DNA from: Nitrospirota bacterium
GTDB lineage: Bacteria > Nitrospirota > Thermodesulfovibrionia > Thermodesulfovibrionales > Dissulfurispiraceae
Direction: 5' to 3'
Assembly: GCA_021847795.1 (NCBI GenBank)
Contig: JAJZPZ010000019.1
Location: 1 to 33,365, forward strand
DNA: 33,365 bases
The notes under the pieces were generated by a model. It had not been told where the DNA came from. It did no database searches and saw nothing but the letters and a program-made list of their open reading frames with translations. Positions 1 to 31,590 of this stretch are shown one piece after another. The first letter of the stretch is position 1. Every line of letters starts with the position of its first letter. Made by a program: the position numbers and the translations under genes.

Positions 1-324
1 GTTGCGGTCTGAGCCGTAAATGAGATCGTTCCCCGTATCTCCTGATGCCAGGTCTCCTTTTTCGTTGATCCCCTGTGCGACTTCTCCATTGGCTATTAAG
101 GTTTCCCTGTCTCCATAGTTCTCTCCGAACAACTGATCATCTCCCGGTACTGCAAGTATCACATCTCCGCCTGCACCCCCTTCGATATGGTCATTGGCAG
201 CGGTGTCGCCAATAAGATCAGCAGTACGATTCGGATTCTGGTCGCCCACGATGGTGTTGGTTGTTACGGGATCAGCAGGCGCATCGAGTGGCAAACGCAT
301 AGGGTCAGACTCACTTTTAGACAT
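1..324 (-). CDS. RTX / hemolysin-type calcium-binding protein, N-terminal part (runs off window)
   Basis: An open frame of 108 codons starts at ATG 324 and continues past the left edge. The translation has glycine- and aspartate-rich RTX-like segments (GGAGGDVILAVPGDDQLFGE near residues 45-65, and GDTGNDLIYGS near the end). These resemble the GGxGxD calcium-binding nonapeptides of type I-secreted proteins. No signal peptide is visible, as expected for type I substrates with a C-terminal secretion signal. An AAAGGAG sequence lies 9 nt before the ATG, inside the last codons of the upstream transposase gene. The start overlaps the transposase stop by 8 nt, and the first eight or so codons lie in the inverted repeat of that mobile element, so the 5' end may be recent. 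A second ATG at codon 9 (300) is an alternative start. Family call from repeats only. Confidence 0.6.
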   Translation of the reverse strand, partial: MSKSESDPMRLPLDAPADPVTTNTIVGDQNPNRTADLIGDTAANDHIEGGAGGDVILAVPGDDQLFGENYGDRETLIANGEVAQGINEKGDLASGDTGNDLIYGSDRN

Positions 325-327
325 TTG
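301..327 (+). repeat. inverted repeat, gene-3' end of element 1
   Basis: It pairs with the reverse complement of 1288-1314 (22/27). It contains the transposase stop codon (319-317) and the proposed ATG of the RTX gene (324-322). Confidence 0.65.
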
Positions 328-1261
328 CTTTCACTCCTTTCAGATAATCAACTACGCGTTCTATCTCTCCTGTGGAACTCGCCCTCTCTTTTAAATGTCT
401 CGTCACTACCATCGGGTCCTTTCTCATATACTCCGCCACTTCCCTGTTTTTGTAGCCGTATTCGCCCGCCACAAGACTGATCATCTTTTTTGCCGCAGTC
501 AGCCGCCGAGCTTTGCCTTTTTGCCGTAGTTCTTTCAGACTTACCCCATAGATTTCCTCAACCACTCGTGCTATCTCTGGAAGGCTATATGCCCTTGTCC
601 TCTTCCGTCCCTTAATGGTGCCGCCACTCTTTTCCCTCACTCTTTCAACAAACTCCTCATCTCCTAGTATCCTCTGATCCACGGTGGCATAAATATCCTC
701 TTTCTTGATAGCGACGGTCATGTCACCCATAAACTTACGGTACAGCTTGCGTGCAGCAGCATTGTCTTCCGCAAACATCCGCAGTGCACTATCGGTATCC
801 ACCAGTGGGCCCCTGTCAGACCTGCCGGCATAGCTGCCATGGCTGCTCCACTCATAGTCTGCAGCTGTTACTGCTATTTTCGCCCTTACCGGGTTGAGGT
901 GAATATATTTAAGGAGGGTCAGGAGATACTCATCCCGGTTACAGAGAATAGCTTTGTATCTGCCCTGAAAGAGATGCCCGACTGTCCGGTACTTTCTGTT
1001 GTAATAAATCGTGTAACTTTGGCTGATGCCCTGCAATATTTTCGATAAAGGGGCTTTGCCCGTCTCTATAAGCATATGTACATGATTGCTCATCAGAACA
1101 TACGCATAGAGAGAAAAGCCGTGTTTTTCCTTATATTTGGCCACAGTCTCCAAATACCTTATAAAATCATCCTCCTGCCTGAATATTTTTTGCCGCTGGT
1201 TACCACGAGTGATTACGTGATAAAGAGCACCTTCAAATTCTATTCTCGTTTTCCGCGCCAT
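317..1261 (-). CDS. REP-associated tyrosine transposase-like protein (Y1_Tnp) with DnaA_C-like C-terminus
   Basis: 314 aa. The N-terminal Y1/HUH nuclease domain (about residues 1-135) begins MARKTRIEFEGALYHVITRG. It shows the HUH pair H60-V-H62 (MSNHVHMLIET) and the catalytic tyrosine Y119 in KYIHLNPVRA, the RAYT-type arrangement for single-strand cleavage through a 5'-phosphotyrosine. The last 90 or so residues (ARVVEEIYGVSLKEL, then a helical region ending MVVTRHLKE) resemble the DnaA C-terminal / TrpR-like DNA-binding fold. The protein is intact, and all catalytic residues match the second copy at 8576. AGGAG lies 16 nt upstream of the ATG, so the ribosome site is weak. It is encoded inside the inverted-repeat element and overlaps the downstream RTX gene by 8 nt. 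The C-terminal domain call is from pattern only. Confidence 0.85.
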   Translation of the reverse strand: MARKTRIEFEGALYHVITRGNQRQKIFRQEDDFIRYLETVAKYKEKHGFSLYAYVLMSNHVHMLIETGKAPLSKILQGISQSYTIYYNRKYRTVGHLFQGRYKAILCNRDEYLLTLLKYIHLNPVRAKIAVTAADYEWSSHGSYAGRSDRGPLVDTDSALRMFAEDNAAARKLYRKFMGDMTVAIKKEDIYATVDQRILGDEEFVERVREKSGGTIKGRKRTRAYSLPEIARVVEEIYGVSLKELRQKGKARRLTAAKKMISLVAGEYGYKNREVAEYMRKDPMVVTRHLKERASSTGEIERVVDYLKGVKANV

Positions 1262-1287: not shown

Positions 1288-1314
1288 CAAATGTCTATAA
1301 TCGTGTCTGACCCC
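1288..1314 (-). repeat. inverted repeat, gene-5' end of element 1
   Basis: Read on the minus strand it begins GGGGTCAGAC and ends TAGACATTTG. The TAGACA may act as a weak -35 for the transposase gene. Confidence 0.65.
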
Positions 1315-1509
1315 ATGGACTCCATGGACTCTGAAAGGTTGGGTTGGGACATGTAAATGTAAATATATCTTATATCATTTTTCATGTCAATATAATTTAA
1401 TATTATTAGTTTTTATGTTATTTTTTTGTCTTTCAGGTCTTATTGTTATGCTTCAGACGGAAAGGGACTTTCATGCTGTTTAAGTTAAGGGAATAGTAAT
1501 TCCGGCGCC
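1315..1509. other. AT-rich intergenic stretch
   Basis: No gene is visible. It begins with a 9-bp direct repeat (CATGGACTC twice, about 1314-1331) just outside element 1. It continues as a strongly AT-rich tract (about 1360-1430) containing several TATAAT-like words. No -35/-10 pair is convincing enough to call as the promoter of the next gene. Confidence 0.5.
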
Positions 1510-7807: not shown

Positions 7808-8197
7808 ATGAAACACAAGTGGCGAGTTCTCTACTATGAGACAGCCGATGGGGCCTGCCCGGTGCAGCAGTTTATCGATACACGCAAGAGCCGGGATCAG
7901 GCAAAGATATTCAGTTGGTTGACTCTTTTGGAAGAGAAAGGGCCTAACCTGCCAAGGCCCTATGCAGATATCCTCGGAGATGGGATTCATGAGCTGAGAG
8001 TGAAGCTTGCCGGTGATCAGGTTCGTATACTTTACTTCTTCTGTTATAGGGAATTCATTGTTCTTAGCCATGCATTCGTAAAGCGCGCAAGCGCAGTGCC
8101 ATCATCTGAGATCAAAAGAGCGCAGCAGTTCCGGGATGACTTTCTCGCCCGGGTTGATGAGAGGAAAATCAGGGAGGGATTTCATGAGAAGCTTTAG
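7808..8197 (+). CDS. higB: type II toxin, RelE/HigB superfamily (phage Gp49-like)
   Basis: 129 aa. It matches the Gp49-like (DUF891) branch of the RelE/ParE/HigB toxins, usually ribosome-dependent mRNA interferases. Features are VLYYETADGACPVQQFID at the start, then the core DILGDGIHELRVKLAGDQVRILYFF, where R and K residues of the beta-sheet line the active site in the family, then FVLSHAFVKR-like IVLSHAFVKRAS. It precedes and overlaps its antitoxin by 14 nt (toxin-first order, as in HigBA). The ATG sits immediately after its own promoter with no Shine-Dalgarno. It appears intact. RNA cleavage activity is inferred from the family. Confidence 0.85.
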   Translation: MKHKWRVLYYETADGACPVQQFIDTRKSRDQAKIFSWLTLLEEKGPNLPRPYADILGDGIHELRVKLAGDQVRILYFFCYREFIVLSHAFVKRASAVPSSEIKRAQQFRDDFLARVDERKIREGFHEKL

Positions 8198-8489
8198 ACA
8201 GCATTTGAAAGAAAAATTGAAGGACGAGAGGTTCAGGCAACTCTACGAGGAAGAACGCCAGCTTGCTGAGCTCTCACTCAAAATACTTGATACCAGGGAA
8301 CATTTGGGGCTTTCTCAGGCAGAAGTTGCAAAGAGAGCAAAAGTCACTCAACAACAGATGTCAAAAGTAGAAAACGGAATCAACTGTAATATTTCCACCT
8401 TCCTCAAGGTATGCAATGCATTGGGCATAAAGATTGATCTTGAGGCTCCAAGAATTCGCCCCTTTGGTCGAAGGACAGCAAGAGCATAA
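8184..8489 (+). CDS. higA: XRE-family antitoxin of the HigBA pair
   Basis: 101 aa, starting at ATG 8184 inside the end of the toxin gene with AGGGAGG 6-7 nt upstream. The N-terminal 30 residues are charged and helical (HLKEKLKDERFRQLYEEE) and probably contact the toxin. A Cro/C1 helix-turn-helix follows (about residues 33-84: LGLSQAEVAKRAKVTQQQMS, then KVENG). It neutralises HigB and very likely represses the promoter at 7773-7802 through the palindrome there. The preferred start gives the 14-nt overlap typical of translationally coupled toxin-antitoxin pairs. Confidence 0.9.
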   Translation: MRSFRQHLKEKLKDERFRQLYEEERQLAELSLKILDTREHLGLSQAEVAKRAKVTQQQMSKVENGINCNISTFLKVCNALGIKIDLEAPRIRPFGRRTARA

Positions 8490-8522: not shown

Positions 8523-8550
8523 GGGGTCAATTCTTTATTATTGACATATC
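8523..8550 (+). repeat. inverted repeat, 5' end of element 2
   Basis: It begins GGGGTCAATTCTTT. Its inner part holds TTGACA (8541-8546), which also serves as the -35 box of the transposase promoter. Confidence 0.7.
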
Positions 8551-8570
8551 ATATGACAATATACAATAAT
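8541..8570 (+). promoter_or_regulatory. promoter of the element 2 transposase
   Basis: TTGACA (8541-8546) and AATAAT (8565-8570) are 18 nt apart. An alternative is TACAAT at 8562-8567 with 15 nt. The predicted start falls at or close to the ATG at 8576, so the message looks leaderless. No Shine-Dalgarno is present. Confidence 0.5.
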
Positions 8571-8575
8571 TCCAC

Positions 8576-9553
8576 ATGGCAAGACCTTTGAGAATCCAAT
8601 ATCCTGGGGCGGTTTATCACGTTACAAGCCGGGGAAACGAGCGCAGGGAAATATTCAGGGAGGATAAAGATAGGCAGCAATTCGTCCATATGCTGTCAAA
8701 GTCGCTGAAAATTTATGCTGTAAAGCTCCGAAGTTATGTTTTGATGAATAACCATTATCATTTCTTGGTTGAGACGCCCCTCGGCAATCTTGGAGAATTC
8801 ATGAGGCATTTCAATGTTTCCTATACCGGCTTTTATAACAGGAAATACACAAGATCGGGCCATCTTTATCAGGGAAGATACACGAGCATTCTTGTGGACA
8901 AAGACGAGTATCTGTCCATTGTGTCCCGATACATTCATTTAAACCCCGTGCGTGTAGAGTCGATGAGATCAAAGACGAGCGAGGAGAAATTCAAATATTT
9001 AGAAGAATATCAATGGAGCAGTCTCGTCGGGTATATTAGCAAGCGGAAGGAAAAGATGGTTGACTATGGGCTGGTTCTTTCAGAATATGGTGGAGATACT
9101 GCCGGAGGAAGGGGCGAATACAAGAAACGTATTATTCAAGACATCAGTGAAGGACTGGAAATCAAGAAAGATATTCTTGGGCAAAGCATTCTTGGCAACG
9201 ATAAGTTCATAAGCTGGGTAAAGAATATTTTTGTTAAAGGGACTGAGGACCGGGAGAGTCCCGGCCATCGGGAACTAAAGCGGTACAGGGCTGAAGAGGA
9301 TATTGTTCGTGTGATAGAGAAGGTATCCGGCGAATCATTTGATGCGATAAGAACCTCCAGACATAGACTTAGGACTGCTGCAATGGATATTCTCTATCGG
9401 GTGGGGGGGCTGAAAGGAATCGAGATTGGCAGGATATTTAATGTTGATTACAGCACCGTAAGTCAGGGGCGAAAACGGTTAGTGGAAAAAATGGAGAGGG
9501 ACGGAAATTTAAGGAGTCTTGTAGAGCGCATCGAAGAGGAATTGTCAAAATGA
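8576..9553 (+). CDS. REP-associated tyrosine transposase-like protein (Y1_Tnp) with DnaA_C-like C-terminus
   Basis: 325 aa. The Y1/HUH nuclease domain starts MARPLRIQYPGAVYHVTSRG, with HUH pair H60-Y-H62 (MNNHYHFLVET) and catalytic Y119 in RYIHLNPVR, at exactly the residue numbers seen in the first copy. About residues 240-322 resemble the DnaA C-terminal domain (GLKGIEIGRIFNVDYSTVSQ echoes the DnaA pattern of IGxxFxxRDHSTV). The middle (residues 135-235) is charged and poorly conserved. The gene is intact, and its stop codon is inside the right inverted repeat. Expected role: single-strand DNA cleavage and transfer of its own element or of related hairpin repeats. Mobility is inferred. Confidence 0.85.
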   Translation: MARPLRIQYPGAVYHVTSRGNERREIFREDKDRQQFVHMLSKSLKIYAVKLRSYVLMNNHYHFLVETPLGNLGEFMRHFNVSYTGFYNRKYTRSGHLYQGRYTSILVDKDEYLSIVSRYIHLNPVRVESMRSKTSEEKFKYLEEYQWSSLVGYISKRKEKMVDYGLVLSEYGGDTAGGRGEYKKRIIQDISEGLEIKKDILGQSILGNDKFISWVKNIFVKGTEDRESPGHRELKRYRAEEDIVRVIEKVSGESFDAIRTSRHRLRTAAMDILYRVGGLKGIEIGRIFNVDYSTVSQGRKRLVEKMERDGNLRSLVERIEEELSK

Positions 9554-9566
9554 AAGAATTGACCCC
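9539..9566 (-). repeat. inverted repeat, 3' end of element 2
   Basis: The reverse complement begins GGGGTCAATTCTTT, identical over 14 bp to the 5' end. It contains the transposase TGA (9551-9553). Confidence 0.7.
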
Positions 9567-31299: not shown

Positions 31300-31590
31300 T
31301 TATACGCCCTCGATAAAATCGAGCTTCTCACCTTTTTTCAACGTTATTATTGCTTTTTTCTTGTCCGATCTTCTGCCTATGGATTTGCCGAACTTCTTCA
31401 GCTTACCCTTGGTATTAATTACGGCAACCTTCTCCACCTTGACCTTAAATATCTCTTCCATTGCCTTTTTTATCTCATGCTTGTTGGCAGCAGCATCGGC
31501 CTCTATCAGGATCTTTCCTTCCCGCTCTTTCAGGTCCATGCCCTTTTCCGTAAAGAGAGGCTTTTTGATTATGTCGTAAATTAATTTCAT
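31300..31590 (-). CDS. rplW: 50S ribosomal protein uL23
   Basis: 96 aa: YDIIKKPLFTEKGMDLKERE and FKVKVEKVAVINTKGKLKKF with GRRSDKKKAIITLK. Forms the exit-site docking point for trigger factor. 1 nt after rplD, 62 nt before rplB. Confidence 0.97.
   Translation of the reverse strand: MKLIYDIIKKPLFTEKGMDLKEREGKILIEADAAANKHEIKKAMEEIFKVKVEKVAVINTKGKLKKFGKSIGRRSDKKKAIITLKKGEKLDFIEGV

Follow-up and report, generated by a model that had tools for sequence, protein, structure and literature searches.

TIRYT elements of a Nitrospirota genome: symmetric terminal repeats, insertions that usually pass the repeat tips, and junction arrays as possible scars of HUH transposase activity

The analysed window, a stretch of 33,365 nucleotides from a Nitrospirota bacterium (contig JAJZPZ010000019.1), contains two elements in which a single-tyrosine (Y1) HUH transposase gene lies between long terminal inverted repeats (TIRs), and the locus raises the question of how such an enzyme could handle ends that resemble those of DDE elements. 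The features of both elements are listed below by window coordinates and strand.

301..327, plus strand: element 1, 3' TIR relative to the transposase gene, with tip AGGGTCAG; 22/27 identity to the opposite end
317..1261, minus strand: element 1, TIRYT transposase (314 aa) with HUH, a catalytic Y and a weak match to Bac_DnaA_C at the C-terminus
1288..1314, minus strand: element 1, 5' TIR relative to the transposase gene, with tip GGGGTCAG
1315..1332, minus strand: element 1, junction tandem repeat outside the 5' tip, AGAGTCCAT GGAGTCCAT / GGGG, in which X is present twice, each unit being about 8-9 nt long
8523..8550, plus strand: element 2, 5' TIR relative to the transposase gene, with tip GGGGTCAA; 23/28 identity to the opposite end
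8576..9553, plus strand: element 2, TIRYT transposase of 325 aa; HUH fold and DnaA-domain-IV-like C-terminus
9539..9566, minus strand: element 2, 3' TIR relative to the transposase gene; contains the stop codon 9551-9553

Family identity and distribution

Long matching inverted ends, as proposed in the original prediction, are present on both elements: the end pair of element 1 (301-1314; AGGGTCAGACTCACTTTTAGACATTTG / GGGGTCAGACACGATTATAGACATTTG) agrees at 22 of 27 positions and that of element 2 (8523-9566; GGGGTCAATTCTTTATTATTGACATATC / GGGGTCAATTCTTTCATTTTGACAATTC) at 23 of 28, whereas shuffled sequence of the same end zones gave best inverted matches of only 15-19. The transposase stop codon lies inside the 3' repeat in both cases (complement of 317-319; 9551-9553), again as predicted. 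The further claim that GGGGTCA stands at all tips was correct for three of the four, but the tip at position 301 reads AGGGTCA. In the 3.54-Mb genome to which the window belongs, GGGGTCA-N10..16-TNGACA has 14 matches versus 0 for the reversed control, and GGGGTCAGRY occurs 56 times versus 12.

The suggested "distinct transposon group" is indeed distinct but not new. RAYT-like genes flanked by TIRs were named "TIRYT", and the corresponding units "TIRtrons", by Di Nocera et al. in 2013, who also described a GGGGWSAS motif and TIRs that are solo, dimeric or grouped (PMC3733652); according to Quentin et al. (2018), most TIRYTs belong to TnpA(Y1) subclass 2.1, with a C-terminal HTH/Bac_DnaA_C domain (PMC6006769). 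The window elements are TIRYTs/TIRtrons, small mobile units of the autonomous kind, as they combine a RAYT-like Y1 protein (HUH plus tyrosine), TIRs in place of REPs, GGGGWSAS and a Bac_DnaA_C-like C-terminus. Within the motif, the 5' tip of element 1 (GGGGTCAG) fits GGGGWSAS, and the element 2 tip GGGGTCAA and the position-301 tip AGGGTCAG are each one base off. The features shared with the published TIRYTs comprise the RAYT-like HUH/Y1 protein with its extra C-terminal HTH/Bac_DnaA_C domain, the GGGGWSAS tip, TIRs that may overlap the gene end, and repeated solo or paired TIRs.

Both window proteins are matched by the Y1_Tnp profile (1e-16 and 5e-13), and H60-x-H62 and Y119, the HUH motif and catalytic tyrosine, are invariant; scores against NCBIfam REP_Tyr_transpos (77.9 and 66.4 bits) fall just below the cutoff of 80. 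The Pfam Bac_DnaA_C match on the C-terminus of protein 1 is sub-threshold, and a profile of 43 homologues matches DnaA structures (2e-7) as well as TnpA-REP 4er8 (7e-4). The predicted structure (pLDDT 90) matches TnpA-REP 4er8, IS608/ISDra2 TnpA and DnaA domain IV 3pvp, and the window transposases accordingly have the C-terminal HTH/Bac_DnaA_C-like domain of subclass 2.1.

RAYT/REPtron systems (TnpA-REP, 4er8) have the same catalytic core, HUH and Y motifs and inverted flanking repeats, and the non-autonomous doublets reported below are comparable to REPINs. However, no GTAG-headed palindromic REPs were found around the gene, the TIR tips being [GA]GGGTCA without hairpin signal, and the present elements differ further in their extra DnaA-like domain and in having 1-6 strong copies per genome, some of which were shown to have moved. 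IS200/IS605 elements (IS608, ISDra2) share the Y1/HUH fold and the lack of a target-site duplication, but their ends are asymmetric, with hairpins and without TIRs, whereas neither subterminal hairpins nor an absence of TIRs characterizes the symmetric ends studied here; moreover, the two window elements have no room for tnpB.

The genome itself contains 18 transposase matches, ranging from full genes to fragments. TIRYTs are widespread in the order, with strong matches in 72 of 176 genomes (about 4 in 10; 1-9 each), and 80 further loci were collected from many phyla, including Nitrospirota, desulfobacterial groups, Omnitrophota, Planctomycetes and Gammaproteobacteria. TIRs of the [GA]GGGTCA type formed a matching pair at 61 of 87 loci, and these 61 pairs gave the tip consensus; another 66 elements with such pairs followed. 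Most of the compared genomes are metagenome-assembled (MAGs). No relatives were found in viral contigs, and plasmid and phage matches to the transposase are distant. One P. aeruginosa plasmid (NZ_CP116719.1, locus L123, 14239-22862) carries three RAYT-type transposase genes (230 aa) amid polymorphic-toxin/immunity cassettes. Separately, the genome of the window encodes shorter RAYT-like proteins of a second class (MPRIARAVAVGFPHHITQRGN...; L011 and L012; G000:C41 and C91), for which no TIR pair with GGGGTCA was seen.

Reading of the terminal repeats

The TIRs share a conserved tip, [GA]GGGTCA[AG]; further in, each has a word specific to the element, present as two direct copies at a spacing of 7 nt. 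Among about 92 non-redundant ends, positions 11-18 recur as a direct repeat at positions 18-25, a signal confined to lag 7 (z 7.8), and no antidiagonal gave convincing pairing covariation. The expectation that these ends are unlike hairpins was thus borne out, as the TIRs fold hardly better than shuffled sequence (mean z -0.5). The elements might nevertheless be IS200/IS605-like or REPtron-like and read subterminal hairpins, with the TIR representing an inverted pair of REP-like palindromes (GTCA...TGAC), given that the Y1/HUH core resembles TnpA-REP and IS608 and that GTCA can pair with an inner TGAC at 86 of 254 ends. Such a hairpin looked plausible in element 2 but was rejected on the folding z and the lack of pairing covariation; the symmetry of the TIRs, the missing GTAG REPs and the direct repeat at lag 7 also speak against this possibility, which is considered distinctly improbable.

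It is inferred instead that the DnaA-like domain, or two such domains, may bind the inner word pair, with the catalytic domain acting at the conserved tip. Assignment of the inner-word reading to one protein domain was abandoned because TIR divergence tracks both (partial r 0.20 and 0.27) and the two are not separable.

Mobility and target sites

Non-autonomous end pairs, whose existence elsewhere had been anticipated, were found. The genome contains four gene-less derivatives of 175-176 bp, which are 89-94% identical and lie in unrelated DNA, and other gene-less end pairs measure 93, 94, 125 and 275 bp. The 94-bp derivative is located between the lysS stop codon and the next start codon (lysS-lolC), and related genomes keep this junction without the insert. 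Near-identical full elements (97.5%, 94% and 99.6%) have different flanks, and the TIRYT element L009 of the window's genome is missing at the corresponding site in a same-genus genome. As shown by genome comparison, elements and gene-less derivatives thus occupy different sites. Both the mobility and the mechanism of TIRYTs are left open in PMC3733652 and PMC6006769; the present comparisons back mobility, narrow the boundaries and provide a reproducible end scar.

No target-site duplication of any length was detected, the counts being equal to the shuffled expectation, and an AT repeat flanking element 1 was discarded as a candidate duplication because it is at chance level. This result also bears on the idea that these are DDE-like cut-and-paste elements with the Y1 gene as a passenger, which would account for the long TIRs at both ends but is scarcely credible: apart from the missing duplication, the Y1 gene fills nearly the whole element and is conserved together with the TIRs across phyla, and the divergences of TIR and protein are correlated (r about 0.5).

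Two sites showed additional features. The same-genus genome that lacks the L009 element has another small inverted-repeat element at that site (GGGGACAGTCCCTATT...AATAGGGACAGTCCCC; L376, G001:C27, about 31310-31450), and GGGGACA repeats similar to those of L376 flank L202; these repeats, which fit GGGGWSAS, are possibly a second TIRYT end family. At L247 (G005:C1, about 2045000-2046200), an insertion within a gene is accompanied by the loss of approximately 5.6 kb on its right side relative to G017, which suggests an adjacent deletion.

Junction arrays and a possible mechanism

Often, a tandem repeat borders the tip: a flank segment X of 5-16 nt and the opening n nt of the tip come first, then a second X, then the element itself; this structure is designated X-tip(n). 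Tandem repeats of at least 8 nt next to the tip were found at 67 of 241 ends versus 3.4 expected, that is, 32 of 121 (1.8 expected) in a first set and 35 of 120 (1.6 expected) in a separate later set. The expectation was derived from shifted positions, located 90-500 nt from the tips within the same flanks, since many background GGGGTCA sites lie within arrays and do not form a clean negative control. The arrays are borne by only some ends (about three in ten; element 1 of the window has one at 1315-1332 and element 2 has none), and 3' and 5' ends are alike in this respect (32 and 35). X is without a consensus, n has its peaks at 2 and 7, and some arrays consist of three or four units with identical X and varying n (e.g., L182_R, L178_L and L153_R). 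Arrays are also found in isolate genomes (L182, Rheinheimera; L201, Pseudoalteromonas), implying that they are not merely MAG assembly errors.

The origin of X was examined in related uninserted flanks. In five comparisons (L241, L235 right, L239, L249 right and L234), the X units are absent, and the alignable sequence ends at the array's outer boundary or close to it rather than at the tip; identity to the related flank is 96.5% for L239, 96.5% for L249 right, 97% for L235 right and 84% for L234. For L241, a 99.5% identical 440-bp paralog in the same genome reads CTGGAG^AGCATATTTTGA where the inserted copy reads CTGGAG TCTTTATGG AATCTTTATGGGG AATCTTTAT/GGGG. X as target DNA is rejected in these five comparisons, which imply that X arrived with the element and that the mobile unit reaches about 5-16 nt past the tip; X is thus generally part of the inserted unit. 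L247 lacks an array, and there the match to the uninterrupted gene extends to the tip. Near-identical copies tend to have a common X (ACAAAR and ATGRTAY in the 175-bp derivatives; the L272 pair), whereas more divergent copies do not. The original prediction that the mobile unit ends at the GGGGTCA tips, to be refuted by empty sites placing its limits elsewhere, stands in modified form: copies and empty sites place the ends at or near the tips, and it is contradicted in a mild sense only, as the insert usually passes them by several nt. No site was found in which both flanks are intact and only an array-bearing element is missing. The 440-bp paralog (L353/L383; G001:C18, about 1422-1861) copies the end of a dinG-like helicase gene and is located downstream of an Rhs-like gene; it keeps the state that preceded the TIRYT insertion at the main dinG-like copy.

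Short-period tandem duplications can come from slippage in any genome, and the arrays might accordingly reflect ordinary replication slippage near an inverted repeat, with no tie to transposase chemistry. This is regarded as improbable, because arrays are about twenty-fold enriched at the tip over positions 90-500 nt away, n varies between successive units of one array, and X is missing from the related uninserted flanks.

The interpretation given somewhat better than an even chance is that a TIRYT transposase, with its HUH and DnaA-IV-like domains, acts on symmetric TIRs and that a nick 5' of X, copying and religation produce the arrays. The inner words would be the docking site of the C-terminal domain, and the tip that of HUH-domain action. 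Nicking on the 5' side of X, at one end or the other, would leave X with a 5'-phosphotyrosine and the flank with a 3'-OH, the latter priming copying by short strand-displacement synthesis; HUH enzymes are known to leave a 5'-phosphotyrosine and a 3'-OH able to prime synthesis or attack the link (PMC8266576). The 5' ends would later be joined to a target 3'-OH, so that no duplication would form, and a round aborted after X plus n nt and then religated would add a single X-tip(n) unit. Either end could gain such units, in which X would stay the same and n would differ; the scheme would amount to HUH chemistry at DDE-looking ends. In IS608 and REPs, cleavage is guided by sequence (PMC8266576), unlike at X, whose lack of a consensus implies a cleavage site that would be set by distance or structure. 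The proposed position and strand of the nick are deduced from the duplications only, and the nick-religation step does not by itself account for the peaks of n at 2 and 7.

Those peaks would be expected from a preferred insertion position within the tip, as in the main rival explanation, nested insertion, in which an X-bearing copy enters an older tip after GG or GGGGTCA and recombination between tandem copies leaves X-tip(n) scars. The constancy of X with variable n within one array (L182_R, L178_L and L153_R) and the movement of X with near-identical copies are compatible with such a history as well. It would, however, need repeated homing to the same end in the same orientation, followed by deletion each time and equally at both ends (32 and 35), and no intact tandem pair was caught midway; nested insertion is considered rather unlikely.

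Beyond the nick-copy-religation scheme, a wider proposal is advanced more tentatively, with a likelihood falling somewhat short of even: an HUH transposase may have shifted from hairpins to symmetric TIRs read as sequence (tip plus 7-nt-spaced words, with a DnaA-like domain), cutting the 5' strand a few nt outside the repeat, with arrays as scars of aborted copying. If this is true, cleavage sites and activity would be readable from genome sequence alone, and the scar makes the handling of DDE-style ends by a single-tyrosine HUH enzyme directly testable with short oligonucleotides. The accessible text of PMC3733652 and PMC6006769 does not include empty sites, the lack of target-site duplication, X beyond the tip, X-tip(n) arrays or the 7-nt-spaced word pair; relative to the open-access papers searched, four features seem not to have been described before, namely the junction arrays, the X extension, the lack of duplication and the word pair.

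With regard to the neighborhood of the window elements, element 1 is immediately upstream of the ATG of a minus-strand gene (window 1-300) that continues beyond the contig end and resembles genes for repeat-rich calcium-binding (RTX-like) proteins, and a HigBA-like toxin-antitoxin pair (window 7808-8489) is located directly upstream of element 2.
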